Positions 6,187 through 29,882 of a stretch of DNA of 64,000 nucleotides are shown here, piece after piece. Each line of letters opens with the position of its first letter. The first letter of the stretch is position 1. The notes under the pieces are model-generated. The model did not search any database. It was not told the DNA's origin and saw only the letters and a list, made by a program, of their open reading frames with translations. Origin of the DNA: Marinobacter sp. CHS3-4 (GTDB taxonomy: Bacteria; Pseudomonadota; Gammaproteobacteria; Pseudomonadales; Oleiphilaceae); NCBI RefSeq assembly GCF_030053415.1, contig NZ_JASGBJ010000002.1, forward strand, positions 310,001-374,000. Reading direction: 5' to 3'. The position numbers were made by a program, and so were the translations under genes.

Positions 6187-7398
6187 CTAACCCACGAATC
6201 CAGTAAGTGCAAAGAACTGAACTGCGCCTGCCAACAACCCCAGCAAACCGCCAACAGCCATCAGTTCCCACTCTTCCTCACGAAACGCAGGGCGAAGGAT
6301 GTCCTGGAATTCCGCAGGGCCCAGAGCTTTCATTTGTTCAGACAATACACTGGCCACAACCGGTGCCCGTTCGCGATTGAAAGCGGGATCAGAAAATACA
6401 TCATGCGTCGCCAGAACCGCTTTCTGATTCATGGCCTTTTTCAGGTCCGTGTATCCGGTCATACCAACCGTCACCTGTGCCGTCAGTTTCATCACGACGG
6501 AGTTGTCCAGCAAAGGCCGCAGGTGTTTCTGGATAATAGCGCGGGTTCGGTCCCCGTGACGGCCGTTAATCATGGCATCTGCCACTTTCTCCACCGTTAT
6601 CAACTCCTCCGCCACGAGCTTTGCCCAGACATCGCTGATTTCAGGCTGACGCTTCAGAAACAAGCCCTGCACCTTCCAGAACAGAAACCTGCGAGGCTCC
6701 AGAGGCCGAAAAATAAGATTGATGGCTATCCAGTTGGTGAGAAACCCCACTGCAAAACCTCCGACCGGTAACAGCCAGGGTTCCGGAAATCTCAACCACA
6801 GCGGCACCAGAATCGCACCCAACAGGCCGCCGATGATGGCACCACGACTGATCACCGAGCGCAGCTCCGCAGAGCCTGCCTGTTGGAAAATACGGTTCAT
6901 CAGGTCCGGGTGCTCCGCAAGTTCGCGGCTTAGCAGTGCTTTGAGATCCACAAGGTCATTCAAATCGTCGCCGAAATCTTCAACCAGAGACTCAATGCGG
7001 TTGGGCAACTGCTCTCTTCCCCAGCGGTATATCCGGTTTCTGACAAACAGCGGCAAGTTATCCCAGAGCACCGGCTGAAGGTCGTACATGACCTCGTCAA
7101 TGTATTCGTCCATTCGAGGGCCGACCTGGGAGATCACCTGCTCAACGATCTTCTCTGGCTCCAGTTTTCGGTAAACTGCGTTCAGGTCTCCAAACTGCTG
7201 AAGTGTCCGGTCAATGCAGATGTGAGCCATCTTTTCAGCTTTTCGGGGGATAACGCCCTGCCAGCCAATGGAGCCGACCCCCAGAAACTGCACCGGATAA
7301 AACGACATCTGAATCGCGAGCCAATTGGTAAACCAGCCCACAGCTGCTGCCACTAAAGGCACTGAAATAAGCGCTACATCAAGCAAGTGGTGCCCCAA
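6187..7398 (-). CDS. DUF445 family membrane protein
   Basis: A 403-residue protein with the duplicated DUF445 pattern. FTNWLAIQMSFYP near residue 22 is echoed by LTNWIAINLIFRPLEP around residue 240. Both follow hydrophobic stretches, and a third hydrophobic segment closes the C-terminus. Between them are long helical, charged regions. The molecular function of this family is not established. The only usable start in frame is TTG at 7398. An in-frame stop lies a short way upstream, and no clear Shine-Dalgarno precedes the TTG. A better-placed AAAGGA-ATG pair sits just upstream in another frame, so a leader peptide or a sequence error is possible. Confidence 0.85.
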   Translation of the reverse strand: MGHHLLDVALISVPLVAAAVGWFTNWLAIQMSFYPVQFLGVGSIGWQGVIPRKAEKMAHICIDRTLQQFGDLNAVYRKLEPEKIVEQVISQVGPRMDEYIDEVMYDLQPVLWDNLPLFVRNRIYRWGREQLPNRIESLVEDFGDDLNDLVDLKALLSRELAEHPDLMNRIFQQAGSAELRSVISRGAIIGGLLGAILVPLWLRFPEPWLLPVGGFAVGFLTNWIAINLIFRPLEPRRFLFWKVQGLFLKRQPEISDVWAKLVAEELITVEKVADAMINGRHGDRTRAIIQKHLRPLLDNSVVMKLTAQVTVGMTGYTDLKKAMNQKAVLATHDVFSDPAFNRERAPVVASVLSEQMKALGPAEFQDILRPAFREEEWELMAVGGLLGLLAGAVQFFALTGFVG

Positions 7399-7545
7399 CC
7401 AGATAAATAAAAGCGCATGATAGCCATCCTTTGATCGTCATTATGTGATGATCATGCGGAAATGGGACTTCAAGGACATTGGCCGAGTCGACCTGGAATC
7501 CGCGGTTAAATGGCAGCAACCCCCAATCCTCGGCAAACAGGAACG

Positions 7546-7570
7546 AAAAAGCCGGCAAATGCCGGCTTTT
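7546..7570 (-). terminator. Rho-independent terminator after nfuA
   Basis: AAAAGCCGGC pairs with GCCGGCTTTT around AAAT. It reads as a terminator on either strand and lies 34 bases past the nfuA stop. The remaining gap to the DUF445 start (7399-7545) shows no gene that I can support. Confidence 0.82.
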
Positions 7571-7603
7571 AATGACGCGAGCGTAGTAAATCGTCGTCTT
7601 GGC

Positions 7604-8191
7604 TTACTGGTAGTAGGCGTTTTCTGTGTAAGAGTGGTCAGTCACGTCGCGAACCGCCGTAATCTCTGGCACACGCTCTCTGAGCGTGGTTTCAACGCCT
7701 TGCTTGAGCGTCAGACTTACAGCACTGCAACCCTGGCATCCGCCGCCAAAACGAAGGACGGCAATGGATTCGTCAGCCACTTCAACCAGCGACACCTCAC
7801 CACCATGAGCCGCCAGGCTGGGATTGATTTCAGAAGCCAGCACGTACTGAATCCGGTCTGGAAGCGGCGCGTCATCGTCCACTTTGGGCACCTTGGCATT
7901 GGGCGCCTTGATGGTCAGCTGACCGCCCATCTGATCCTTGGAGTAGTCCACATACGCTTCTTCAAGGAAAGGCACCGAATTATGGTCCAGGTACAGGGTG
8001 AACTTCTCCAGATCAACCTGCTCGTCAGTCGGCACGACCTCATTTGGCGGGCAATAGGCCAGACAGGTCTCAGCATTCTTGGTGCCGGGCTGAGTTACGA
8101 AAATGCGGACACCCATGCCTTCTACATCCTGCTTTTCGATCAATTGTGCAAGATAGTCCCGAGCGGGATCAGTCACTGTCACCAAAGCCAT
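7604..8191 (-). CDS. nfuA: Fe/S biogenesis protein NfuA
   Basis: Carrier that delivers [4Fe-4S] clusters to apo-proteins, notably under oxidative or iron stress. It has 195 residues (E. coli 191). The N-terminal half is a degenerate A-type (IscA-like) domain that includes [11 protein letters not shown]. The C-terminal half is a NifU-type domain with the cluster-binding CxxC in [17 protein letters not shown]. It is monocistronic by appearance, with its own terminator, and is divergent from metH across 187 bases. I see no clear IscR-like site in that gap by eye. Confidence 0.95.
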
Positions 8192-8330
8192 AGTTACAAC
8201 CCATTGGAAAGTTTCCCCCGTATTTTAAGTGAGATCGCGCCAACATGAAAGACCAAGTAAATTACTCAGGCTTTAGTTGCAGATCCGTGTCTGGAAGTTG
8301 ACATGGCAACGGGACGACCTGACCCAATTT

Positions 8331-8339
8331 TGCTATGAT
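8331..8339 (+). promoter_or_regulatory. metH: Candidate extended -10 promoter for metH
   Basis: TGCTATGAT is an extended -10 (TGn plus a good -10 hexamer) 40 bases before the metH ATG. No good -35 lies at the proper distance; a TTGACA occurs upstream but 30 bases from the -10, which is too far. No cobalamin riboswitch was recognised in the gap. Confidence 0.45.
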
Positions 8340-8378
8340 CCCGCGCCTTGGAACCAATCATGAAATCCGGAAGTTATT

Positions 8379-11300
8379 ATGACCGATCGCGAAACCCGTC
8401 TGAAACAGCTTCATAAAGCCCTGCAAGAGCGCATCGTGGTGCTCGATGGTGGTATGGGCACGATGATTCAGAACCTGAAGCTGGACGAAACAGCGTTCCG
8501 CGGCGATCGGTTTGCTGACTACGACCGGGAAGTTCAGGGCAACAACGATCTGCTGAACCTGACACAACCTGCCCTGCTGCGAAATATCCACGCCGATTAC
8601 CTGGAAGCCGGCGCCGATATCATTGAGACCAATACCTTCAACTCAACGCAGCTTTCGCAAGCCGATTACGGCCTCGAATCCATTGCCAGAGAGCTGAATG
8701 TGGCCGCAGCAGAATTGGCAAGGGAGATTGCAGACGATTTCACGGCCCGCAATCCTGACAAGCCCCGGTTTGTGGCGGGTGCCGTTGGACCAACCTCCAG
8801 AACCGCGTCGATTTCTCCGGATGTGAATAATCCCGGCTATCGCAACGTGGATTTTCAGACCCTGGTCGACAACTACTACGAAGCGGTGGATGGGCTTGTC
8901 GCGGGTGGTTGCGACCTGATCCTGATTGAAACCATTTTTGACACCCTGAATGCCAAGGCGGCCATTTACGCCACGCAGCAGTTCTTCGAAGACAGCGGCG
9001 TTGCTCTGCCGATCATGATCTCCGGCACCATTACAGATGCGTCTGGCCGCACGTTGTCTGGCCAGACGACCGAAGCTTTCTGGAATTCAATTGCGCACGC
9101 CAAACCCATCTCTGTGGGCCTGAACTGCGCCCTGGGTGCCGACGCATTGCGGCCTTACATCGAAGAGCTGTCGACCAAGGCCGACACCTATGTCAGCGCC
9201 CATCCCAATGCGGGCCTGCCCAACGAGTTTGGTGAATACGACCAGACCCCAGAGGAAATGGCCGACATCATCGAGGGCTTTGCCCGGGATGGATTCCTTA
9301 ACATCATTGGAGGCTGCTGTGGGTCCAGGCCGGACCACATCGAAGCCGTAGCCAACGCGGTCGCCAAATACCCGCCCCGCAAAATCCCCACACCCAAGCC
9401 GGCGTTACGCCTGTCAGGGCTGGAACCCTACACTGGCGACGAAAACACTTTGTTTATCAACGTCGGTGAGCGCACCAACGTCACCGGTTCCAAGCGTTTC
9501 CTGCGCCTGATCAAGGAAGAGCAGTACGAGGAAGCCCTGAGCGTTGCCCGTGATCAGGTTGAAAACGGTGCCCAGATCATCGATATCAACATGGACGAGG
9601 GCATGCTGGACTCAAAGGAAGTCATGGTGACTTTCCTGAATCTGGTTGCCTCGGAGCCAGATATCTCCAAAGTTCCATTGATGATCGACTCCTCCAAATG
9701 GGATGTGATCGAAGCTGGCCTGCGCTGCATCCAGGGCAAAGCGGTGGTGAATTCCATCAGTCTGAAAGAAGGCGAAGACGAATTCCTGAAGCGGGCCAAA
9801 GACTGCATGCGTTACGGCGCTGCGGTGGTTGTTATGGCGTTCGATGAAGACGGTCAGGCCGATACTTTCCAGCGCAAGACCGAAATCTGTAAACGGTCCT
9901 ACGACCTGCTGGTTGACGCGGGCTTTAACCCGGCAGACATCATCTTCGACCCCAACATTTTTGCCATTGCCACCGGCATCGAAGAACACAACAACTACGC
10001 TGTGGATTTCATCAATGCAGCGCAGTGGATTCGCGACAACCTGCCCCACGCGTCGATTTCCGGCGGTGTCAGCAACGTGTCCTTTTCTTTCCGGGGCAAC
10101 GACGCAGTGCGGGAGGCTATCCACTCGGTATTCCTGTACCACGCCATCAAAGCTGGCATGAACATGGGCATTGTGAACCCGGGCCAGCTGGTAATCTACG
10201 ACGAGATCGATCCGGAACTGAAAGAACTCGTGGAAGACGTGGTGCTGAATCGCCGGGAAGACGGCACTGATCGTCTGCTTGAGATTGCCGAACGCTACCG
10301 CGGCAAGGGCGGCAAAACCCAGGAAGAAGACCTGGCGTGGCGGGAGTGGCCCGTCGAGAAGCGCCTTGAGCATGCCCTGGTCAAAGGCATCACCAGTTAT
10401 ATCATTGACGACACGGAGGCCTGTCGCCAGCGAGCAGAGCACCCCATTGAGGTGATCGAAGGCCCGCTTATGGACGGCATGAACGTGGTGGGCGACCTGT
10501 TCGGCGACGGCAAGATGTTCCTTCCACAGGTCGTCAAAAGTGCCCGGGTAATGAAACAGGCTGTTGCACACCTGATCCCTTACATCGAAGCGGAAAAATC
10601 CGAGGGACAACAGGCCAAAGGCAAGATTCTGATGGCCACGGTAAAGGGCGATGTTCACGATATCGGCAAGAACATTGTCGGCGTCGTCCTGCAATGCAAC
10701 AACTACGAAGTGATTGATATGGGCGTCATGGTGCCCTGCGACAAGATTCTTGAGAAAGCCCGAGAAGAAAACGTCGACATCATCGGCCTGAGCGGGCTGA
10801 TCACCCCGTCGCTGGACGAGATGGTTCATGTCGCCCGCGAGATGCAACGACTGGACTTCCACGTCCCATTGATGATCGGTGGCGCTACCACCTCAAAGGC
10901 TCACACGGCGGTCAAAATTGAGCCTCACTACGAGAACGACCTGTCGCTGTACGTTTCCGATGCGTCACGCTGCGTCAACGTGGCCTCGCAGCTGCTGAGC
11001 AAGACTGCGAAGGGCAAGCTGGTTGAGGATACACGCAAAGAATACGACGAGATTCGCGAGCGCCGGAAAAACCGCGGCGAACGAACCAAGCTGGTATCAC
11101 TGAAAGAAGCCCGCGACAGAGCTCCGGAAATACCCTTCGAGGGTTATCAGCCACCCAAGCCGGCTTTTACCGGTATTCGCACCTTTGAAACCTGGGATCT
11201 TGAAGAGCTGGTTGACTACATTGACTGGTCTCCGTTCTTTATTTCCTGGGACATGTCCGGCAAATACCCGGCCATATTCGATGACCCCAAGCGTGGAGAC

Positions 11301-12077
11301 GCTGCCAGAACGCTCTTTAACGACGCCCAGGAAATCCTCCGACAGATGATCGAGGACAAGCGGGTGTCAGCCAAAGCCGTCATTGGTTTCTGGCCGGCCA
11401 ATCGTCGCGGCGACGACATCGTGTTATACACCGATGAAACCCGATCAGAAGAGCTGACCACCCTGCACCACCTGCGTCAGCAAGATGAAAAGGCCAAAGG
11501 CAAGCCTATGACGGCACTGTCTGATTTCGTGGCACCTGAAGGTGATGGCCCCGTCGATTATGTGGGCGGGTTTGCCGTGACCACCGGCATCGGCGCCGAA
11601 GAATTCTCGGTGGAGTTCAAGGACCGGAACGATGACTACAACGCCATCATGGTCAAGGCACTCGCTGATCGTCTGGCCGAAGCTTTTGCCGAACGCATGC
11701 ATGAGCGTGTCAGAACCGAGTTCTGGGGCTACGCAAACAACGAGAACCTGAAGAACGAAGACCTTATCCGCGAACGCTACCGCGGTATTCGTCCAGCGCC
11801 GGGTTACCCGGCCTGCCCGGACCACACCGAGAAAGCGACTTTGTTCGAGCTATTGAAAGCGCCGGAAAACGCCGGAATCGAACTGACCGAACATTTCGCC
11901 ATGTATCCCACCGCTGCCGTGTCGGGATGGTACTTCTCCCACCCGGACGCCAAATATTTTGCCGTGGGCAAGATTGGCGTCGACCAGGTGGAAGACTATG
12001 CTGACCGCAAAGGCATCTCCAAAGCTGACGCAGAACGTTGGCTGGCTCCAAGCCTGGCCTATGATCCCGCCGAGTAA
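8379..12077 (+). CDS. metH: Cobalamin-dependent methionine synthase
   Basis: Transfers a methyl group from 5-methyltetrahydrofolate to homocysteine through cobalamin. It has 1232 residues (E. coli 1227) with all four modules. The homocysteine domain (about 1-330) has zinc ligands Cys250, Cys313 and Cys314. The folate (pterin-binding) domain is at about 350-620, with the motif [11 protein letters not shown]. The cobalamin cap and domain (about 650-890) carry the lower-ligand His760 in [12 protein letters not shown]. The AdoMet reactivation domain (about 900-1232) has [15 protein letters not shown] from residue 1135. Nothing essential is missing. The stop codon lies in the loop of a long perfect inverted repeat. 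Confidence 0.98.
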
Positions 12078-12097
12078 TCGTCGGCGGGATCATAGGC
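12057..12097. repeat. 17-bp perfect inverted repeat enclosing the metH stop codon
   Basis: Bases 12057-12073 and 12081-12097 are perfect reverse complements, separated by seven bases that contain the metH TAA. No T run follows on either strand, so it is not a textbook intrinsic terminator. It may stabilise the mRNA 3' end or work in Rho-dependent termination. Confidence 0.8.
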
Positions 12098-12144
12098 ATA
12101 CTTCGAGAACGGACCAATACACCGAGCAAGACAGGATTCGCGAA

Positions 12145-12375
12145 ATGAAACAGGATGAGCAGGAGAAAAGCGGTAAGCCTCGCAAAGGCCCGGGCGTTCT
12201 TAAGGTACTTCAGAGCGTTCTCGCGGGCGCTATTGGCGTTCAATCCAATAAGCGCCGCGAAGAGGATTTCTCAAGCCACAGTCCGTGGCCCTATATCGTG
12301 GCAGGCATCATTTTCACGGCCGGGTTCGTGATCACCCTGGTGGTCGTCGTGAAGATGGTTCTGGCCAGCCAATAA
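12145..12375 (+). CDS. Small DUF2970-type membrane protein
   Basis: 76 residues from the ATG at 12145. The charged N-terminal half (Lys-rich start, GVLKVLQSVLAGAIGVQS, then a run of Arg/Glu) is followed by one transmembrane segment (WPYIVAGIIFTAGFVITL and onward, about residues 48-73). The arrangement of a VLxSVLAGxxGVQS stretch before PW-IVAG-IF--FV fits DUF2970, a family of unknown function found in gamma- and betaproteobacteria. It lies 67 bases after metH on the same strand and could be cotranscribed if the intervening hairpin does not stop RNA polymerase. Confidence 0.8.
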   Translation: MKQDEQEKSGKPRKGPGVLKVLQSVLAGAIGVQSNKRREEDFSSHSPWPYIVAGIIFTAGFVITLVVVVKMVLASQ

Positions 12376-12376
12376 C

Positions 12377-12481
12377 TTACTGGCCGGAAACCCAAACAAC
12401 CGCAAAAGCGACAACGAGCATGACCAGCAGCACCGCTGCAACGGCATCGGCCTGACTATCGGTCGTTGAAGACTTCTTCAT
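12377..12481 (-). CDS. 34-residue membrane microprotein
   Basis: The ORF starts with ATG at 12481 behind a very strong AAGGAGAAG Shine-Dalgarno and ends with TAA at 12377. The product begins MKKSSTTDSQADAV, continues with one hydrophobic helix (AAVLLVMLVVAFAVVWV) and ends SGQ. It is below the length cut of most gene finders. The strong ribosome site, the clear soluble-head plus single-helix layout and tight packing support it; its stop is one base from the end of the convergent DUF2970 gene. Function is unknown. I know of no named family. Confidence 0.68.
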   Translation of the reverse strand: MKKSSTTDSQADAVAAVLLVMLVVAFAVVWVSGQ

Positions 12482-12636
12482 AAACCCTTCTCCTTGTTGT
12501 TCTCTGTTAATTATTGATTATTGTCAGAATGACACGGACTTAAACAAACAATCTATGCCTTTAGCGGCGTTGAGTCTACCCCCGCACCGCCCGTTTCATA
12601 TCGCTAAAATCGATTAACATATTTGAAAATAATCAT

Positions 12637-12664
12637 TTTAACAATAATGAAGCGGTGATATTCT
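12637..12664 (+). promoter_or_regulatory. cysI: Candidate promoter for cysI
   Basis: TTTAAC, 16 bases, TATTCT, about 54 bases before the cysI start. The -35 is weak and the flank just upstream is AT-rich, which would suit an activator-dependent promoter such as a CysB-controlled one. That regulator is inferred from the pathway, not seen. Confidence 0.4.
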
Positions 12665-12718
12665 GCCGCCCATATTGGTGCAGATCCCGTTTTTAGCGCT
12701 TCAGCAGGACATCCCACT

Positions 12719-14371
12719 ATGTACGTTTATGACGAACACGATCGGCAGATCGCTGCCGAGCGGGTTGAGCAATTTCGTGACCAGACCCGTCGAGCACTGG
12801 CCGGCGAGCTTGCCGAAGAAGAGTTTCTTCCGCTTCGCCTTCAAAATGGCCTTTACGTTCAACGCCTCGCGCCTATGCTGCGCATCGCCGTGCCCTATGG
12901 CATGCTGAGTTCAAAGCAGTTGCGCGCGCTGGCACGCATTACCCGCGACTACGATAAGGGTTATGCGCATTTTACCACCCGCCAGAACGTTCAGCTTAAC
13001 TGGCCGGCCCTGGAAGACGTGCCTGATATCCTCGCCGAGCTGGCCGAGGTAGAGATGCATGCCAACCAGACCAGCGGTAACTGCATCCGAAACACGACAA
13101 CCGATCAGTTCTCTGGCGCCCAGGACGACGAAATAGCCGACCCTCGCCCCTACTGCGAAATCATCCGCCAGTGGTCGACGTTTCACCCTGAATTTGCTTT
13201 TCTGCCGCGGAAGTTCAAGGTAGCAGTGAATGCTTCCGAGCATAGTGATCGTGCAGCGATTCAGGTTCACGACATCGGACTGCAACTGGTTCGCGATAAC
13301 AACGGCGAATTGGGCTTCCGAGTGCACGTCGGAGGCGGTCTTGGACGCACCCCCATGGTGGGGCCCGTCATTCGTGAGTTCTTGCCAGAAAAGGACTTGC
13401 TGACCTATCTGGAAGCTGTTCTTCGTGTATATAACCGGTACGGCCGTCGTGACAACAAATTCAAGGCGCGGATCAAAATCCTGGTGAAGGCGCTGACGCC
13501 CCAAGGATTCGCAGAAAAAGTGGAAGCGGAATGGGCTCACATTAAGGATTCCCCTACTCAGCTGACACAGGACGCCATTGAGAAGTTCAAAACCTACTTC
13601 ACTGAGCCGGCCTATGAGCAGGTGCCCGATGTGAAGGAGACCCTGGCCACGCAGCGTTTCGAAAATCGTGCTTTCGATCAGTGGATCGCACACAACGTGG
13701 ATGCCCATAAGAAGCCGGGGTATGCCATCGTCACGCTGACCATGAAAAAGACCGGTACTCCTCCGGGGGACGTCACCGACCGGCAGTTGGAGCAAATTGC
13801 TGATGTGGCGGATCAATACAGCTTTGGCGAAGTGCGCGTAACCCATCAGCAGAATGTCGTGCTGGCCGATGTGCGGCAGGACAAGCTGTTTGAGCTTTGG
13901 GAAGCCATCACACCGATGGGTTTTGCAACGGCCAACCTGAACACCCTGACGGACGTTATCTGCTGCCCCGGTGGCGACTACTGCTCGCTGGCAAATGCCA
14001 AGTCTATTCCGGTCGCAGAAGCTATCCAGCGCAAGTTTGACGACCTGGACTACCTCTACGATATCGGCGATGTGGACCTGAATATTTCGGGCTGCATGAA
14101 CGCCTGTGGCCATCATCACGTTGGGCATATCGGCGTACTCGGTGTCGACAAGAAAGGCCAGGAGTTCTATCAGATCAGCCTGGGTGGCTCCTCCCATCAC
14201 GATGCGGCCATCGGCAAGATTCTTGGTCCGTCGTTTGCCCGTGAAGACATGCCAGATGTTGTGAAGAAGATCATCGATGTGTATGTCGATAACCGCACTC
14301 AGGAAGAGGCCTTCCTGGACACCTATCGCCGAATCGGGATTGATCCATTCAAGGAGCGCGTTTATGCCTGA
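12719..14371 (+). CDS. cysI: Assimilatory sulfite/nitrite reductase hemoprotein (CysI type)
   Basis: Siroheme and [4Fe-4S] enzyme performing a six-electron reduction, most likely sulfite to sulfide for cysteine synthesis. It has 550 residues with two ferredoxin-like half domains and two siroheme domains. The first half has RITRDYDKGYAHFTTRQN and NQTSGNCIRN. The cluster and siroheme ligands are Cys416, Cys422, Cys459 and Cys463, in CCPGGDYC and SGCMNAC. Nitrite reductases of this fold are similar, so nitrite cannot be excluded. The following DUF934 gene, a common partner in cysteine-biosynthesis loci, favours sulfite. No CysJ-type flavoprotein is adjacent, so the electron donor is probably ferredoxin or encoded elsewhere. 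Confidence 0.92.
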   Translation: MYVYDEHDRQIAAERVEQFRDQTRRALAGELAEEEFLPLRLQNGLYVQRLAPMLRIAVPYGMLSSKQLRALARITRDYDKGYAHFTTRQNVQLNWPALEDVPDILAELAEVEMHANQTSGNCIRNTTTDQFSGAQDDEIADPRPYCEIIRQWSTFHPEFAFLPRKFKVAVNASEHSDRAAIQVHDIGLQLVRDNNGELGFRVHVGGGLGRTPMVGPVIREFLPEKDLLTYLEAVLRVYNRYGRRDNKFKARIKILVKALTPQGFAEKVEAEWAHIKDSPTQLTQDAIEKFKTYFTEPAYEQVPDVKETLATQRFENRAFDQWIAHNVDAHKKPGYAIVTLTMKKTGTPPGDVTDRQLEQIADVADQYSFGEVRVTHQQNVVLADVRQDKLFELWEAITPMGFATANLNTLTDVICCPGGDYCSLANAKSIPVAEAIQRKFDDLDYLYDIGDVDLNISGCMNACGHHHVGHIGVLGVDKKGQEFYQISLGGSSHHDAAIGKILGPSFAREDMPDVVKKIIDVYVDNRTQEEAFLDTYRRIGIDPFKERVYA

Positions 14372-14867
14372 AGTGATTACACATGATGGGGCCATTCTCA
14401 ACGACGAATGGATTGTGGTTGAACGCCCGGCTGAAGGTGAATCCCTGGATATTCCAAGTCGCCCGGCATTGATCCCGGCCGACTTGTGGCTGGCGGGGAA
14501 AGAGCATTTTCTCGGCCGCCAGGACATTGGCGTGTGGTTTGACAGCCACCAGGAGCCGGAAATGCTGGAAGGCCTGGTGAACGAGCTTTCCGTGATTGCG
14601 GTGAATTTCCCGAAATTTGCGGATGGTCGCGGCTACAGCATCGCCAGATTACTTCGGGAGCGCCTGGGATACGAAAACGAACTGCGGGCTATTGGTGACG
14701 TACTGCTGGATCAGCTTCAGTTCATGAAGCGCTGTGGTTTCGACCGCTTCGTGCTCCGGGCCGATAAAAATGCCGAAGAAGCGGCTCGCTGCCTGAACTT
14801 CTTTACGCAGGGTTATCAGGCGGCAACGGACACCGATATTCCGCTGTTCCGTCGCCGCGCTTCCTGA
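14364..14867 (+). CDS. DUF934 family protein, sulfite-reductase partner
   Basis: 167 residues from the ATG at 14364, which overlaps the end of cysI by eight bases. The start is preceded by AAGGAG inside cysI. The conserved C-terminal half has FPKFADGRGYSIARLLRER, GDVLLDQLQFMKRCGFD and a late GYQAATDT, the usual DUF934 pattern. Family members sit beside cysI or cysH in many proteobacteria, and some annotations call them oxidoreductase accessory proteins. The biochemical role is not settled. A longer open frame reaches back into cysI and is not the true start. Confidence 0.88.
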   Translation: MPEVITHDGAILNDEWIVVERPAEGESLDIPSRPALIPADLWLAGKEHFLGRQDIGVWFDSHQEPEMLEGLVNELSVIAVNFPKFADGRGYSIARLLRERLGYENELRAIGDVLLDQLQFMKRCGFDRFVLRADKNAEEAARCLNFFTQGYQAATDTDIPLFRRRAS

Positions 14868-14879
14868 TATCAGGGCTGA

Positions 14880-14915
14880 ATCACAGCCTCTGACTCACTG
14901 ATCAGAGGCTGTGAT
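14880..14915. terminator. 14-bp perfect hairpin between convergent DUF934 and acuI genes
   Basis: Bases 14880-14893 pair perfectly with 14902-14915 around an 8-base loop. The stop codon of the minus-strand gene is inside the right arm. No T tract follows on either side, so it is probably a shared 3'-end structure rather than a classical terminator. Confidence 0.55.
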
Positions 14916-15903
14916 CGAGAACGATTTTCCCGGACGACATTCCTTTCAGAAACGCGCTCAGCGCATCATCCAGGTCACCTCGCCCAATATCTCTGGCAGA
15001 CGCTTCCGTGACCGGGCACGCCCAATCACCCGCCAGGCGCCCCCAAACAAGCTGCTTCTCGGCCAGCGGAATCTCTACCGAGTCGACACCCAACAGATTA
15101 TTTCCCCTCAGAATAAACGGCAAAACGGTGGTTTCCAGCTGCGGGCCGGCCACCAGGCCGCAACAGGCCACAGAGCCACCGGGTATAATCTGCTTCAGCA
15201 TTTCAGCGAGTGGTGAACCACCCACCGTATCGATGCCGTTTGCAAAGATGGGCTTGAGCATCGGCTTTTTGGTGGCATCGAATGTATCTCGCCCCAAAAC
15301 TTCACTGGCTCCCAGTTCTTTCAGATTCTCGGCGTGCTCAGCCTTGCCGCTCACCGCCACAACGTCAAAACCAAGACGCCCCAGGATTTCAACCGCAACA
15401 CTGCCTACAGCACCACTGGCACCACTGACCACAACTTTACCCTGCTCCGGTTCGGCACCCATGCTAAGAAGTTTCTTGACGCACAAACCGGCTGTAAGGC
15501 CGGCGGTGCCGTATATCATGGCCGTGCGCGCATTCCATCCGGAAGGCATAGGTACGCACCAGGCCGCTGGCACTCGAATATACTCACCGAAACCACCGTC
15601 GGTGTTCATGCCGAGATCGTAACCGGTTACAAGCACTGGATCGCCGGCCTTCAAAGGCCCGGCTGAGGCCTCCACAACCTCCCCGGCCGCATCAATACCC
15701 GGGGTGTGCGGAAACTCCCGGGTAACGCCCTTATTTCCGGACGCAGACAGCGCGTCCTTATAATTGAGGGAAGAATGAGTCACTTTGATCAGCACTTCGT
15801 TATCCGGCAGATCAGACAACTGCAGCGTCTTTTCAGAACCAGCATAACCGCCATCGACTTCTTCAACGCGCCACGCTTTAAATTCTGTTGTCTCTGTCAT
15901 CAT
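14902..15903 (-). CDS. acuI: YhdH/AcuI-type NADPH-dependent zinc-free alcohol dehydrogenase-like reductase
   Basis: Medium-chain dehydrogenase/reductase family, 333 residues. It has the catalytic-domain start SLNYKDALSASGNKGVTREFPHTPGIDAAG and the Rossmann motif VSGASGAVGSVAVEILGRLGF (about residues 155-175). The family includes E. coli YhdH and AcuI, which reduces acryloyl-CoA to propionyl-CoA with NADPH. In marine bacteria that activity helps clear DMSP-derived acrylate. The gene has no DMSP-degradation neighbours here, so the physiological substrate is uncertain. ATG at 15903 is used; a second ATG follows one codon later. Confidence 0.87.
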   Translation of the reverse strand: MMTETTEFKAWRVEEVDGGYAGSEKTLQLSDLPDNEVLIKVTHSSLNYKDALSASGNKGVTREFPHTPGIDAAGEVVEASAGPLKAGDPVLVTGYDLGMNTDGGFGEYIRVPAAWCVPMPSGWNARTAMIYGTAGLTAGLCVKKLLSMGAEPEQGKVVVSGASGAVGSVAVEILGRLGFDVVAVSGKAEHAENLKELGASEVLGRDTFDATKKPMLKPIFANGIDTVGGSPLAEMLKQIIPGGSVACCGLVAGPQLETTVLPFILRGNNLLGVDSVEIPLAEKQLVWGRLAGDWACPVTEASARDIGRGDLDDALSAFLKGMSSGKIVLDHSL

Positions 15904-22500: not shown

Positions 22501-24264
22501 ATGACCCATCGCCACCTGCCGACCCTGATACTGATTGGTGCCCTCATCAGCGGCTGCCAGTCGTTTAGTTCCAAGGAACAGGCTGCGAAAGAAGACGTAC
22601 TGGACTCGGAAACACTGACCGTAGCAGCTGGCGATGAAGGGCTAAAAGAGGCGGTAGAGAGCGGCTCAGAGTCGCAACAACAGGAAGCCATAAAGGCGAC
22701 CCGTACGAAACTCGATGACGCAATCGAACCGTCCATGAAAGAAGCGGCCGAGAATGCGCGGGAAAAACTGGATACTCCTGCCGATGGCGTTGCGGAATCA
22801 GAGGCCAATCCCGAACCCAAGACACCGCCAGATCCGGACCTGTGGGTGAGACTTCGTGCCGGATTCAAGCTGGATCATGACGTGGATGAACGCCGGATCA
22901 CTTCGCAGTTGAACTGGTACAAAAGACATCCGCGTTATATTGACCGGGTTGCCGAACGCGGTAGCCGGTATCTGTTCCACATTCTCAATGAAGCAGAGAA
23001 ACGTAACCTGCCGACGGAGTTGGTGCTTCTACCCGTTGTCGAAAGTGCCTTTGATCCCTTTGCCTACTCCCATGGGCGCGCCGCTGGCCTGTGGCAATTC
23101 ATTCCATCAACCGGCAAATATTTTGGCCTGACCCAGAGCTGGTGGCATGACGAACGTCGGGACGTCATTGCTGCCACTGACGCTGCATTCAATTACCTCG
23201 AGCGCCTGGCCAACCGCTTTGACGGCGACTATATGCTGGCGCTGGCTGCGTATAACAGTGGCGGTGGCACCGTATCCAGCGCCATGCGCAAGAACCGCAA
23301 ACGCAATCAGCCCACCGACTTCTGGTCACTGGATCTACCCCGGGAAACGAGGCATTACGCCCCCAAACTTATTGCACTGGCGCGAATTTTTGCCGACCCA
23401 GAGAAATACGGCATTGAGCTCCCACCGTTGAAAGATGAGCCCTACTTCGAGGTTGTCGATACGGGTTCACAGCTGGATCTGGCGCAAGCCGCCAAACTGG
23501 CGAATGTGGACATTGACGAAATCTACCTGCTCAATCCGTCCTTTAACCGATGGGCGACCTCTCCTGATGGCCCTCACCGTTTGCTGATTCCCAAGGAGAA
23601 CGCTGAAACGTTCCGGACCGCTCTGGCCGAAATTGCCCCGTCGGAACGCGTGTCCTGGCACAGTTACGAAGTGTCTTCCGGCGACACGCTGGGGTCCATC
23701 GCCTTGCGCTACGGCACCACTCCCTCGGTGATTCAGCAGGTGAACAAGTTGAACAGCCACATCATCCGTATCGGACAGCGCTTGATGATTCCGTCCGCCA
23801 GCCAGGACGCCGATACCTACAGCCTGAGCGCATCAGAACGCCTCAGCCGCAAGCAGGACAACGCGGGCAAACGGGCCGGCGGCAAGCGCGTGGACTATAC
23901 AGTGCGCTCTGGCGACACGTTCTGGGACATTGCCCGGGAACACAAAATTGGCGTTCGAGAGCTTGCCTCCTGGAACGGCATGGCACCCGGTGATCCGCTA
24001 ATGCCGGGTCAGGACCTGGTGATCTATTCCAAATCACCGCAGGCCGCAAAAATGGCGAGCCCACCGGTGACCACATCCCGAGGCGACGGCATGGTCCGTA
24101 AAGTGGGTTATCGGGTACGCAAAGGCGACTCGCTATCCCGCATCGCCAGCCGTTTTGCCGTCAATGTGAGCGACATCGCAAGCTGGAATAACCTGAACAC
24201 CTCTCGTTATCTTCAGCCCGGACAAAGTCTGGTACTCTACGTGGACATCAGAAACAGCCCCTGA
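22501..24264 (+). CDS. mltD: Membrane-bound lytic murein transglycosylase D
   Basis: Outer-membrane lipoprotein that cleaves the peptidoglycan glycan strand, forming 1,6-anhydro-muramyl ends. ATG 22501 gives a lipoprotein signal with lipobox LISGC; an upstream TTG in frame would put an implausible leader in front. The 587-residue product has a Glu/Ala-rich linker. The SLT domain follows (about 160-300), with catalytic Glu in VVESAFDPFAYS and signature AAGLWQFIPSTGK. Three LysM repeats lie at about 395-440, 465-510 and 540-585, each opening with a V-x-x-GD-(T/S) pattern. E. coli MltD has two LysM repeats, so three is slightly more. Confidence 0.94.
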   Translation: MTHRHLPTLILIGALISGCQSFSSKEQAAKEDVLDSETLTVAAGDEGLKEAVESGSESQQQEAIKATRTKLDDAIEPSMKEAAENAREKLDTPADGVAESEANPEPKTPPDPDLWVRLRAGFKLDHDVDERRITSQLNWYKRHPRYIDRVAERGSRYLFHILNEAEKRNLPTELVLLPVVESAFDPFAYSHGRAAGLWQFIPSTGKYFGLTQSWWHDERRDVIAATDAAFNYLERLANRFDGDYMLALAAYNSGGGTVSSAMRKNRKRNQPTDFWSLDLPRETRHYAPKLIALARIFADPEKYGIELPPLKDEPYFEVVDTGSQLDLAQAAKLANVDIDEIYLLNPSFNRWATSPDGPHRLLIPKENAETFRTALAEIAPSERVSWHSYEVSSGDTLGSIALRYGTTPSVIQQVNKLNSHIIRIGQRLMIPSASQDADTYSLSASERLSRKQDNAGKRAGGKRVDYTVRSGDTFWDIAREHKIGVRELASWNGMAPGDPLMPGQDLVIYSKSPQAAKMASPPVTTSRGDGMVRKVGYRVRKGDSLSRIASRFAVNVSDIASWNNLNTSRYLQPGQSLVLYVDIRNSP

Positions 24265-24290
24265 ACCTTTCAACTGAACGTGCGAGTTCT

Positions 24291-26138
24291 ATGATAACGA
24301 CTAATAACGCTTACCCGTCTGTTTTGACCCGGCAAGTACGTCGGTTCCTACACTCAGTTATTGTCTTGGGAGCCTGTCTATCGGCTTCCATCGCAGCGCC
24401 GCTGAGCGCCGCACCTGTGGCTCAACACGGGCTGGCTCTTCATGGGGAAGTGAAATATCCGGAAGACTTTAGTCACTTCGATTACGTGAACCCTGATGCC
24501 CCAAAGGGTGGGACAATACGAAGAGCCGTGATCGGAAACGGTTATGATTCCTTCAATCCGTTTGTAGCCAGGGGCATTCCAGCCGCAGGAATTGAGAACT
24601 ACCTGTACGACTCGCTTCTTGAATCATCCGCTGATGAACCATTCTCAGTTTACGGCCTAATTGCAGAATCCATCGAAATTCCAGAGGACCGTAGTTACGT
24701 CATATTCAACTTGAGAAAGGAAGCCCGATTTCAAGATGGAGAGCAGATCACCGCTGCAGACGTAAAATTTACTTTCGATTTGATCAAGACTAAGGGACAT
24801 CCTCGCCGCAAGGTTTATTACGAAGATGTAGTTGAAGCCATAGTAATAAATCCGCATCGCATTAAATTCGAATTCTCAGAGAAACGAAACCGAGAACTTC
24901 CGCTGATAATCGGTCAGCTTTCTATTTTTCCAAAACACTACTGGAAAGATCGAGAGTTTGGTTAAAATGGCCTAGATCGTCCTATTGGTAGTGGACCTTA
25001 TAGGATTGGTGATTTCGAGGCAGGCCGGTCGATAAGCTATGAAAGGGTCGAAGACTACTGGGCTGAAGATCTGGGTGTTCGCAAAGGACGGTTCAACTTC
25101 GGAGAAATAGTTTTTGAATACTACACCGACGAAACGGTGGCACTGGAATCGTTTAAAGCGGGAAATTACGACTTCAGGATAGAATATATGGCCAAGAATT
25201 GGGCTACCGCATACACAGGTGAGGCGTTCGACTCAGGTAAAATTGTCAAAGAGTCTATAGACCATGATCGTCCAGTAGGCATGCAAGCCTTCGTATTCAA
25301 TACCCGCCGGGCAGTATTCGAAGATCCGGCCGTGCGCCAAGCTCTATCCTACGGCTTCGACTTCGAATGGGCCAATAAGGACTCATTTTTCGGTCAGTAC
25401 AAGCGCACCAAAAGCTATTTCGAAAACAGCGAGCTTGAATCATCAGGCCTCCCAACTGGCAGAGAACTGGAAATACTAGAGCCTTATCGTGAACAATTAC
25501 CAGATTCGGTGTTCAATTCCGAATACCAGCCGCCGACGACGTCCGGAGAGAGGACCATCCGCGACAATCTTTTTGAGGCCCAAAGCCAACTAAGAGCTGC
25601 AGGATATGTAGATCAGAATGGCACCATGGTAAAAGAAGACTCGGGAGAGCCTTTAACGTTTGAAATCCTGCTCGATCAAAAAACCTTTGAACGAGTGGTC
25701 TTGCCGTTCAAGAAGCAACTGGGAAGACTAGGAATTGAAGTTACCGTTCGCATCGTCGACACAAGCCAGTACGCCGAACGCTGGCGTACGCGAGATTTCG
25801 ACATGACCGTCTTTACGTTTCAGCAATCTGATTCACCTGGTAATGAGCAAAAAGATTATTGGCACTCTTCTTCTGCTGATGTAGATAGTTCCGGTAACTT
25901 GGCGGGCGTGAGCCATCCGGTGATCGATGAACTCGTGGATTACCTGATCCAAGCACCGAATCGTGAGGAGCTGGTTTACCGCACGCGCGCACTCGACCGG
26001 GTGCTTCTGCATCATCACTACGTAATTCCCAACTGGTACGTGCCCAGTGACCGGATCGCCTACTGGTCATTCCTTAAGCGGCCAGACACCGTCCCCAAAG
26101 ACGGCGCCGACGTGAACAATTGGTGGATCGAACGCTGA
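24291..26138 (+). pseudogene. yejA: Yej-type peptide ABC transporter substrate-binding protein, interrupted by an in-frame stop
   Basis: Periplasmic binding protein (SBP family 5) for the downstream yejBEF importer. The frame runs from ATG 24291 to 26138 (about 615 codons, near the family's 600) but has one TAA at 24963-24965. On both sides the frame is identical and fully family-like: KHYWKDREFG before the stop, then NGLDRPIGSGPYRIGDFEAG. There is no frameshift. The stop stands where related proteins usually carry Lys, so AAA to TAA is the simplest explanation. A signal peptide (about residues 18-42) and the early motif GGTIRRAV are present. From about 24640 to 25740 the DNA is visibly richer in AT and in rare codons (AGA, ATA) than its neighbours. 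It may be a pseudogene, a recent mutation, a read-through product or a sequencing error. Confidence 0.85.
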
Positions 26139-26183
26139 TTGATACTGCCCTTGCCTGACCGAACGCAGACGGAGCACCTGTAG

Positions 26184-27266
26184 ATGGGTAGTTACATACT
26201 CAGGCGCCTGGCGCTGATTATCCCCACCCTGGTGGGCATCATGCTGCTGAATTTCGTGATTGTTCAGGCGGCACCAGGCGGCCCTGTAGAGCAGATGATC
26301 GCTGAAGTCGAGGGATTTGGCGGTGACGCTCTGGATCGCGCGAGTGGCGGAGGATCCGGCGGGGAAGTATCAGGCAATGGAGACAGCCGGGGCTCTCGGG
26401 GCCTGCCGCCAGAACTGTTAAAAGAAATTGAAGTGATGTACGGCTTCGACAAGCCCGCCCACGAACGCTTTCTGAAAATGCTTGGCGACTACGCCACTTT
26501 CGACTTTGGCGAGTCTTTCTATCGCCAACGAACGGTAACGGACCTCATCGTCGACAAGATGCCCGTGTCCATTTCGCTGGGGCTCTGGTCCACGCTGATC
26601 ATCTATCTGATTTCAATTCCTCTGGGCATTCGCAAGGCCGTCACCGACGGCTCGCGTTTCGATGTCTGGACCAGTTCGGCCATCGTTATCGGGTATGCCA
26701 TCCCCGGCTTCCTATTCGCGATTCTGTTGATCGTTCTGTTTGCCGGCGGCAGTTATCTAGACTGGTTCCCGTTGCGGGGTCTGACCTCCTCCAATTTTGA
26801 CGAGATGACCTGGTACCAGCAGATCGGCGACTACTTCTGGCATCTGGCACTGCCCGTCACAGCGAACGTCATCGGGGGCTTCGCTACCCTGACCCTGCTG
26901 ACTAAAAATTCGTTTCTGGATGAGATTGGCAAACAATATGTGGTGACCGCCCGCGCCAAGGGCCTGGAGGAAAAGCGAGTCCTTTATGGCCACGTATTTC
27001 GTAACGCCATGCTGATTGTCATTGCGAGCCTGCCCGGCGTACTGGTTCAGCTCTTTTTCACCGGATCGTTGCTGATTGAAGTCATCTTTTCACTGGACGG
27101 TCTCGGGCTGCTTGGTTTTGAAGCGGCTTTGAACCGGGATTATCCGGTGGTATTCGGAACACTCTACATTTTTACTCTGATGGGTCTGGTGCTGAAATTG
27201 ATCAGCGACATTACCTATGTGCTGGTGGACCCACGCATTGATTTTGAAAGTCGGGAGGGCGCATGA
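26184..27266 (+). CDS. yejB: ABC transporter permease YejB
   Basis: Inner-membrane permease of the peptide/microcin C-type importer. It has 360 residues. It starts with the conserved helix [21 protein letters not shown], followed by a Gly/Ser-rich extracytoplasmic insertion (about 45-75). Five further hydrophobic segments follow, and the cytoplasmic EAA-type loop [24 protein letters not shown] that contacts the ATPase. It lies 45 bases after the yejA remnant and overlaps yejE by four bases (ATGA). The gene is intact. Confidence 0.93.
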
Positions 27267-28294
27267 GCCTGGCCCCGACACTGACTCCAATCCAGCAGCG
27301 GCGTTTACGTAATTTTCGCAACAACCGACGCGGCTATTGGTCGTTGTGGATATTTCTGGCGCTGTTCGGGCTCTCGCTGTGCGCGGAATTGATCGCCAAC
27401 GATAAACCGCTGGTTGCTTCCTACAAGGGCGAGCTTTATTTCCCGGTGTTTGAGGTGGTCTCCGAAGAGACCTTTGGCGGATTCCTACCCACCGAAGCCG
27501 ATTACCGCGATGACTTCGTGGCGGACGAAATCAACGCCAACGGCTGGATGCTGTGGCCACCCATCCGCTTCAGCTATAACACCACCAATTACGACCTTGA
27601 GGTGCCTTCGCCTGCGCCGCCCAGTGAGGTCAACTTGATTGGTACCGACGATCAGGCCCGCGACGTGGCTGCCAGGGTTATCTATGGCTTTCGTATCTCG
27701 GTGCTGTTTGGCCTGATCCTGACCATTCTGAGTTGCATTGTGGGCGTGGCCGTCGGCGCCGTTCAGGGCTTTTACGGCGGCAAGATTGACCTGCTTGGTC
27801 AGCGTTTCATTGAGATCTGGTCCGGTCTGCCGGTTCTGTACCTTCTGATTATTCTATCGAGCATTGTTCAACCGAACTTCTGGTGGTTGTTGGGCATCAT
27901 GCTGTTATTCAGCTGGATGGGTCTGGTCGATGTGGTTCGGGCAGAGTTTCTTCGAGCCCGTAATTTCGAGTATGTCAAAGCGGCGCGGGCTCTGGGCCTG
28001 GGCAACCGTAAGATCATGTTCAGGCACATTCTGCCCAACGCCATGGTCGCCACCCTGACCTTTCTGCCGTTCATTCTGACGGGCGCCATAACCGGACTGA
28101 CCTCATTGGACTTTCTGGGCTTTGGCCTGCCCTCCGGCTCGCCGTCGCTGGGTGAGCTCATTGCTCAGGGCAAAGCCAACCTGCACGCGCCGTGGCTGGG
28201 TATCTCAGCCTTCGTTTCACTGTCGATCATGCTGACGCTGCTGGTGTTTGTGGGCGAAGCCGTGCGCGATGCGTTTGATCCGAGAAAGAACTGA
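27263..28294 (+). CDS. yejE: ABC transporter permease YejE
   Basis: Second permease, 343 residues. It has the OppC-type N-terminal signature [18 protein letters not shown], a large periplasmic loop (about 55-130) containing [19 protein letters not shown], and five further helices. The EAA loop is [24 protein letters not shown]. Coupled to yejB by a four-base overlap and separated from yejF by a single base. Intact. Confidence 0.94.
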
Positions 28295-28295
28295 T

Positions 28296-29882
28296 ATGTC
28301 ATCATTGCTTGAAATCAACAATCTATCGATCAGTTTCGACGGCGCGAAAAACGTTGTAGACGGGCTGTCTCTGTCCATACAGAAAGGCCAGACGCTGGCG
28401 CTGGTCGGTGAAAGCGGATCCGGCAAATCTGTCTCTGCGCTTTCCATTCTGCGCTTACTGGACGAACGGCACGCCCATTATCCGTCGGGCAGTATCGTGT
28501 TTCAGAGTGAAAACATGCTGTCCATCAGCGACAAGCGCTTGCGTAAAATCCGCGGCCGGAAAATCAGTATGATTTTCCAGGAGCCAATGACGTCCCTGAA
28601 CCCGCTTCATACCGTTGAGAAACAGATTTCCGAAGCTCTTGAGCTTCACCGTGGCCTGCGTGACGCCGCGGCAAGGAGTCGATGCATCGAATTGCTGGAG
28701 CTTGTCGGGATACCCCAGGCCGAAGAACGGCTGAATAGCTATCCGCACCAGCTGTCAGGCGGACAAAAGCAGCGGGTCATGATTGCCATGGCGCTTGCGA
28801 ACGAACCGGACCTGCTGATCGCCGACGAGCCGACCACCGCGCTCGATGTTACCGTTCAGATGCAGGTGCTGGAGTTACTTCGCGAACTTCAGAAAAAGCT
28901 CGGCATGGCCATCCTGCTGATCACGCACGATCTTTCGGTTGTGCGCCGGTATGCCGATCAGGTGGTGGTCATGGAACAGGGTAAGGTGGTCGAGAACGCA
29001 GCGACCGAATCCCTGTTTACTGATCCCCAGCACCCGTACACCCGAAAGCTGCTGGACGCAGAGCCGCCCTCTTCTCCATCCCATACGAATATTCAGGATG
29101 AACCGCTGCTGGAAGTCTCGAATCTTGACGTGCGTTTCACCACTCGCCGTTCCTGGCTGGGCAAGCCCAAGGCCTGGTTCCAGGCGGTCGACAATGCCAG
29201 CTTTGGCCTGAATCGTGGCGAGACCCTGGGCATTGTTGGCGAGAGCGGTAGCGGCAAGACCACGATCGGCCATGCGCTGCTAAAACTGACCGCCTGCACA
29301 GGCTCGGTACGCTTGTCTGGTAACGATCTCGGTCCGATGAATCAGAAGCAGTTCCGACCCTACCGGCGCCAGATTCAGATTGTGTTTCAGGACCCGTTCG
29401 GAAGTCTCAGCCCGCGGATGTCAGTGGCAGAGATTGTCCGAGAGGGACTGGAGATCCATACGCCTGCTTCTGCGGAGGAGCAGGACAGGCGCGTCATCCA
29501 GGCGCTCACTGATGTGGGGCTGGACCCGGAGGCACGCCACCGCTATCCCCATGAATTTTCAGGTGGCCAACGTCAGCGCATTGCCATCGCCCGGGCGCTG
29601 GTGTTGCAGCCGGAACTGATCATTCTTGACGAGCCTACGTCTGCGCTGGATCGCACCGTTCAGAAACAGGTGATTCACCTGCTGCGAAATCTGCAGGAAA
29701 AATATGGTCTAAGCTATGTGTTCATCAGCCATGACCTTTCCGTGGTAAGAGCCTTAAGCCACAAGCTGCTGGTACTGAAAACCGGAAAAATTGTTGAATA
29801 CGGCAGTGCCGAAGAGATATTCAACCACCCACAACACACGTACACGCGGGAGCTGCTCAACGCCTCGCTGTTCTACAACTGA
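28296..29882 (+). CDS. yejF: ABC transporter ATP-binding protein YejF (two nucleotide-binding domains)
   Basis: Drives the Yej importer by ATP hydrolysis. ATG 28296 gives [12 protein letters not shown] and 528 residues; an open frame extends a little upstream inside yejE. Domain 1 has Walker A GESGSGKS, signature LSGGQKQR and Walker B LLIADEP; domain 2 has [16 protein letters not shown] and LIILDEP. Both halves carry the oligopeptide-transporter type C-terminal HPYT/HTYT motifs. In E. coli YejABEF takes up microcin C-like peptides. With yejA interrupted, whether the complex still works is open. Confidence 0.95.

Follow-up and report, generated by a model that had tools for sequence, protein, structure and literature searches.

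In this Marinobacter, the one yejA gene that we found has probably become a null allele through a recent nonsense mutation, and the YejABEF peptide importer would thereby have lost its periplasmic binding protein. The mutation lies in the window, by which we mean the whole 64,000-nucleotide stretch of DNA that was analyzed. The window belongs to contig C2 of a 3.72 Mb assembly of seven contigs (hereafter G000), for which a completeness of 100 and a contamination of 0.01 are listed. As the preliminary description had stated, an in-frame TAA at 24963-24965 (+ strand) splits a yejA gene of about 615 codons, and the frame is identical on both sides. It runs from the ATG at 24291 to the TGA at 26136-26138, and contains 615 codons when the stop, codon 225, is counted as X. 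The 5′ part (24291-24965, + strand) comprises the ATG, the N-terminal region with a putative signal peptide, and the remainder of the first 224 codons, and ends at the premature TAA, which adjoins an A run (TTAAAAT). The 3′ part (24966-26138, + strand) continues in the same frame for 390 codons plus the TGA. A single uninterrupted frame for a secreted, two-lobed YejA was thus not found, the TAA at codon 225 breaking it. In the 3′ part, the earliest in-frame ATG, GTG, or TTG is the GTG at 25137. An in-frame ATG also occurs at 25188, with AGGA eight bases upstream; it could serve as an internal restart, and is probably a chance occurrence.

The two parts encode one recognizable protein. The PF00496 (SBP_bac_5) profile scored 228 bits on the read-through product, with the domain in the middle of the protein, and when the two parts were searched separately, the N-terminal 224 residues matched profile positions 2-99 and the C-terminal 390 residues matched positions 113-362. 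The read-through product aligned to solved YejA proteins over residues 39-613 or 46-613, with E values from 2.8e-159 to 1.5e-138; the best phmmer value was obtained with 7z8e_A (residues 39-613, E 2.8e-159), and the values for 8fsr, 8fss, 8fsq, 7z6f (named YejA), and 7atr were 1.1e-139 to 1.5e-138. Because the frame across the stop aligns to solved YejA proteins and has matches in 122 of 124 genomes of the genus, it is not a chance frame. The gene also lies upstream of yejB, yejE, and yejF, where a yejA of this operon belongs. These three genes had been described as intact, which was borne out by both the profile searches and the reading frames: yejB (26184-27266, + strand) encodes a permease that scored 572 bits with the NCBIfam YejB model (cut-off 445), yejE (27263-28294, + strand) encodes a permease that scored 530 bits with the YejE-type permease model of NCBIfam (cut-off 439), and yejF (28296-29882, + strand) encodes a double ATPase for which the NCBIfam YejF model was the best match at 756 bits, below its cut-off of 834. 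The conserved upstream neighbor of yejA is an intact mltD-like gene (22501-24264, + strand) for a lytic transglycosylase with LysM domains, which scored 414 bits with the MltD model, below the cut-off of 508.

A comparison of yejA with its relatives, as proposed in the preliminary description, placed the stop in this strain alone within the genus set. This set comprised 124 genomes (G000 and 123 further genomes), each species being represented by a single genome. A yejA match was found in 122 of them, including all 110 genomes with completeness ≥ 90% and contamination ≤ 5%; no match was obtained in G077 and G101, which have completeness values of 82% and 84%. The best 28 of the 80 named loci that matched YejA were all from Marinobacter. 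Among the 122 matched genomes, only G000 had a stop inside yejA, whereas the other 121 had no internal stop; in G116, the TGA that was flagged terminates the overlapping upstream mltD and is not a lesion of yejA. Broken yejA matches occurred in two genomes, G088, in which the gene is split across two contigs, and G066. In the latter, a single-contig genome, mltD, yejA, yejF, and fabI were matched partially and yejB and yejE were matched whole (C1, ∼320000-337000), and this is probably an error-rich assembly. Internal stops are rare in the genus set, because the same search detected them in 0 of 119 matched genomes with YejF and in 1 of 120 with MltD as controls. At the family level, yejA was matched in 153 of the 163 genomes searched, and the matches listed contained no additional internal stop.

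The searches also revealed related genes elsewhere. Among the matches listed, two YejA-like matches per genome were observed in family members outside the genus (G124-G128, G130, G131, and G154-G159), and in G130 (C129:70184-73909) and G131 (C85:51473-55118) the two lie side by side. This arrangement is reminiscent of the yejA1-yejA2 pair of Brucella, which is mentioned in a report on the YejA structure (PMC10924461). In four genus genomes, a second YejF-like double ATPase, 50-57% identical to the YejF of the window, is encoded elsewhere in the genome (G033 C22:75318-76889, G041 C9:157625-159205, G049 C1:437655-439232, and G119 C66:49281-50858).

The position of the stop was said to be usually occupied by lysine, and this was only partly confirmed. 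Lysine occurs at codon 225 in 15 of 46 relatives, but aspartate is found in 16, and the remainder have glutamate (8), arginine (4), glycine (1), serine (1), or asparagine (1). In 52 wider homologues, lysine (20) is followed by arginine (15), alanine (7), glutamate (4), glutamine (2), aspartate (2), serine (1), and threonine (1). Judged from these alignments, codon 225 is a variable and mostly hydrophilic position. Both nearest sisters, G014 and G026, have glutamate here, so an ancestral glutamate codon is the simpler guess.

An interruption survey was conducted on 404 kb, or 11% of G000. The 687 sister ORFs of ≥ 120 aa were reduced to 334 non-overlapping ORFs, of which 199 had a homologue at thresholds of 50% identity and 70% coverage. 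A stop appeared in 16 of the 199, including yejA. Five of these (r644, r510, r332, r663, and r656) face intact ORFs of 220 to 347 aa encoded on the opposite strand and were interpreted as shadow frames, and nine others (r378, r24, r619, r648, r158, r95, r23, r657, and r402), with stops only in the first 44 residues, were interpreted as start-site differences. The sister ORF r544, which is 125 aa long, matched at 54% with two stops at G000 C2:376578-376952, outside the window, and may represent a gene, a pseudogene, or a shadow frame. This short ORF aside, yejA was the only convincing mid-gene interruption among the 199 ORFs compared, with no other convincing stop or frameshift, and the idea of an error-ridden G000 assembly was therefore not supported.

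The pattern of substitutions suggests that the stop is young. The whole-gene dN/dS of G000 yejA relative to its sisters (Nei-Gojobori method) is not given as a ratio because pS is saturated; over codons 45-615, pN was 0.16 and pS was 0.86 (saturated) relative to the nearest sister. The two genes differ at 549 nucleotides, both branches taken together. In simulations, 150 unconstrained changes produced 4.9 stops on average, with ≤ 1 stop in 4% of runs, and 300 changes produced 8.7 stops, with ≤ 1 stop in 0.05%, so a long neutral decay of yejA was rejected. In G000 yejA, no second stop or frameshift was seen, and no codon is inserted in this gene alone. Given the single stop and the absence of frameshifts, these sequence comparisons indicate that protein constraint acted on yejA during most of its history and that the stop is young. 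Upstream of the stop, 34 changes are specific to G000 and 18 to the sister, and downstream of it the numbers are 59 and 42 (Fisher p 0.49); as the changes specific to G000 are not significantly enriched after the stop, nothing in them dates the loss of YejA. Relaxed selection on yejBEF, which had been suggested as a check, was tested and not seen: YejB, YejE, and YejF deviate at 0 of 261, 2 of 249, and 3 of 258 invariant sites, respectively, which is within the range of the relatives, and the pN values given below point the same way. Unrelaxed yejBEF genes fit only a very young loss of YejA, an error, or a role of YejBEF without YejA.

The yejA gene of G000 is unusual in composition and divergence. 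Its GC3 is 0.495, whereas the 46 relatives average 0.691 (s.d. 0.042); the GC3 values of mltD, yejE, and yejF are near the relatives' means, and that of yejB is low and inside the relatives' range. Among 160 genes in the 404 kb sampled (ORFs ≥ 200 aa, with the flagged rows r644, r510, r332, r663, r158, r656, r657, r402, and r544 dropped), yejA had the lowest GC3 and ranked second in GC3 difference, and its identity to G014 was the 37th lowest, which is no outlier. The pN values for the pairs G000-G014, G000-G026, and G014-G026 were 0.183, 0.186, and 0.112 for yejA, so that G000 is clearly further away, with about twice the protein change of the sisters. For mltD (0.110, 0.129, 0.140), yejB (0.028, 0.038, 0.040), and yejE (0.041, 0.048, 0.051), the three genomes are about equally distant, and for yejF (0.081, 0.104, 0.076), gloB (0.206, 0.182, 0.154), and fabI (0.054, 0.049, 0.028), G000 is somewhat further. 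In a tree of codons 45-550, G000 groups with G014 and G026 (support 100/99), and its branch from the shared node is 0.43, compared with 0.175 and 0.225 for the sisters. Of 228 sites that do not vary among the other 46 rows, 13 are changed in the G000 YejA (14 of 229 when the alignment was repeated); the row with the second most deviations has 5. Some of these deviations are at very conserved residues (L365, A383, and R535), and others introduce residues that are common elsewhere.

Scans along the gene located part of this signal. In a best-segment scan, third-position G/C was lost relative to the two sisters over 24495-25962 (+ strand; approximate bounds), a segment that ends short of the gene end and was reached by 0 of 2,000 shuffles. 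In G000, 238 of 509 codons in 24423-25950 end in G or C, against 44 of the 62 codons that follow (p 0.0004, for a boundary picked post hoc). The excess of amino acid changes covers the whole of yejA (24294-26127; 0 of 2,000 shuffles). However, a scan restricted to the four-fold sites of G000 gave no significant segment (its score was reached by 163 of 2,000 shuffles), and the control amino acid scans of the sisters were also high over mltD-yejA (G026, 0 of 2,000 shuffles; G014, 1 of 2,000), so the segment scans alone are not specific. A search for a plasmid donor of the low-GC segment gave no useful match, only seven Azospirillum records that covered 8% of the query. From the sequences compared, these results suggest that either weakened constraint or a recombined allele preceded the stop. 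We lean slightly toward a divergent allele recombined from an unsampled sister lineage, although drift under weaker constraint fits the oddity of yejA nearly as well.

We considered whether the TAA could be a sequencing or assembly error, with yejA intact in the cell. A single substitution would suffice for this, the TAA stands beside an A run, and the strong past constraint on a gene with no other lesion, the unrelaxed yejBEF, and the yejA matches in every good-quality genus genome all agree with an error. It is opposed by the cleanness of the assembly, with its 199 ORFs surveyed in 404 kb, its seven contigs, and its completeness and contamination values. Moreover, consensus assemblies contain fewer substitution errors than indel errors. 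The affected gene is also an outlier in both GC3 and invariant-site deviations, which errors would not favor; since the stop falls in the gene with the lowest GC3 sampled, a random error becomes less likely, although this argument is post hoc. We therefore regard an error as unlikely, and the base read at 24963-24965 as presumably real in the cell.

The preliminary description also raised the possibility that the stop is decoded, so that translation through the TAA at a useful rate would yield some full-length YejA and a functional gene. Belinky et al. (2021; PMC7918605) argue that a single stop in a constrained bacterial gene is often a sign of read-through, and the yejA of the window shares with their genes a single stop, low non-synonymous divergence, and no other decay, a signature of purifying selection around the stop that would suit read-through. 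The variable and mostly hydrophilic nature of codon 225 implies that many residues would be tolerated there. However, the same past constraint is expected of a young null allele, and that study also states that many such events are short-lived and that the vast majority are assumed to involve no functional recoding. Whereas Belinky et al. infer frequent read-through, the stop in the window concerns one genome and had no direct support for decoding. TAA also serves as a terminator in this genome: in 189 conserved ORFs of the 404 kb sampled, again without rows r644, r510, r332, r663, r158, r656, r657, r402, and r544, the stop met first beyond the match was TAA in 61, TGA in 104, and TAG in 24. 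An Rfam model located 45 tRNA places in the genome, and ARAGORN, run on all 45, gave no stop-reading anticodon at any of them; neither code reassignment nor a suppressor tRNA was supported. The 100 nt after the TAA showed no unusual fold (z −0.73 relative to shuffles) and nothing that points to a programmed hairpin, although a known stimulatory element need not be stable. Nor is the stop conserved in orthologues, either in the genus genomes or in the family matches listed. Functional read-through is accordingly improbable in our judgment.

In another scenario, yejA was replaced over ∼1.5 kb by a divergent low-GC allele, or lost much of its constraint, and the stop was then kept because YejBEF works without its binding protein, intact yejBEF being maintained for a role independent of YejA. 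A puzzle raised in the YejA structure paper bears on such a role, namely that in Salmonella the deletion of yejF has a phenotype that the deletion of yejA does not have (PMC10924461). This course of events is improbable in our view. The alternative that yejA is an older pseudogene, or that its halves now act as separate working products via an internal restart, agrees with the raised protein change, the deviations at invariant sites, and the ATG at 25188 with its upstream AGGA, but is highly improbable, given too few stops for 300 unconstrained changes and no frameshifts, changes that are not concentrated 3′ of the stop, and halves neither of which should retain the full binding-protein fold. 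A promoter driving a separate 3′ gene was also rejected, with no promoter-like site found in 24200-26300 (shuffles gave 1.8 on average); inside yejA, there is one terminator-like site (shuffles, 1.8).

A recent null allele remains the reading that we favor. The stop is absent from the orthologues, and no intact second yejA was found in the genome, where the search gave a single match at E 1e-50. Two SBP_bac_5 matches were obtained in the genome at E 0.001. The other family-5 gene lies in its own dpp-like operon (7244-15175 of locus L209, G000 C3:170000-188000), in which the binding-protein gene is followed by genes for two permeases and two ATPases, and which also encodes a LysR-like regulator and a peptidase-like protein, all named by eye. 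Rescue by a second yejA or by another binding protein was therefore rejected as an explanation, although YejBEF may use the dpp-like binding protein. The lowest GC3 and the most invariant-site deviations would be expected of yejA if its constraint had already weakened. Against a null allele stand the lack of a second stop and of any frameshift, and the divergence and low GC3 could also be due to recombination.

If the null allele is real, translation would halt after 224 residues and leave a fragment without most of the two-lobed fold, so the truncated product is expected to be non-functional. The 390-codon remainder lacks the N-terminal signal region and, even if restarted internally, is not expected to function as a binding protein in the periplasm. 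YejB, YejE, and YejF would be intact with their dedicated binding protein gone, and peptide uptake via YejABEF would probably be lost or much reduced. The proposal that one nonsense mutation had cost the strain this uptake thus stands in part: the stop is unique in the sample, past constraint is evident, and neither a back-up copy nor a suppressor tRNA was found. An effect on peptide antibiotics may follow, but resistance to Trojan-horse peptides, the second part of the proposal, is no more than an analogy with E. coli, and nothing in the analysis shows selection for it. Our search of the literature found nothing on yejA in Marinobacter. The allele is most likely an ordinary nonsense allele of a known gene in a single genome. 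It is of mild interest as a natural yejA-null background with intact yejBEF, in which the activity of the Yej permease without its binding protein could be tested, and it warns that the presence of the operon alone is a poor predictor of peptide uptake or microcin sensitivity.

The system in the window closely resembles the known YejABEF importers. Its read-through product has near full-length homology to the YejA proteins of Sinorhizobium meliloti (PDB 7z8e) and E. coli (7atr), and the gene order yejA-B-E-F is common to both. In E. coli, the deletion of any yej gene is reported to confer resistance to microcin C (PMC10924461). In Sinorhizobium, according to the account in PMC10128002, single yej mutants are still susceptible to phazolicin, and in S. 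meliloti, resistance required the loss of BacA too; yejA insertions were recovered among resistant S. meliloti mutants, and the premature stops reported there are in bacA (PMC10128002). The window allele differs from these mutants in occurring in a natural genome under no known selection, whereas the phazolicin mutants described in PMC10128002 also lacked BacA. Nevertheless, the transporter that would be inactivated in the strain of the window is the same as that in the yej mutants selected with microcin C or phazolicin.
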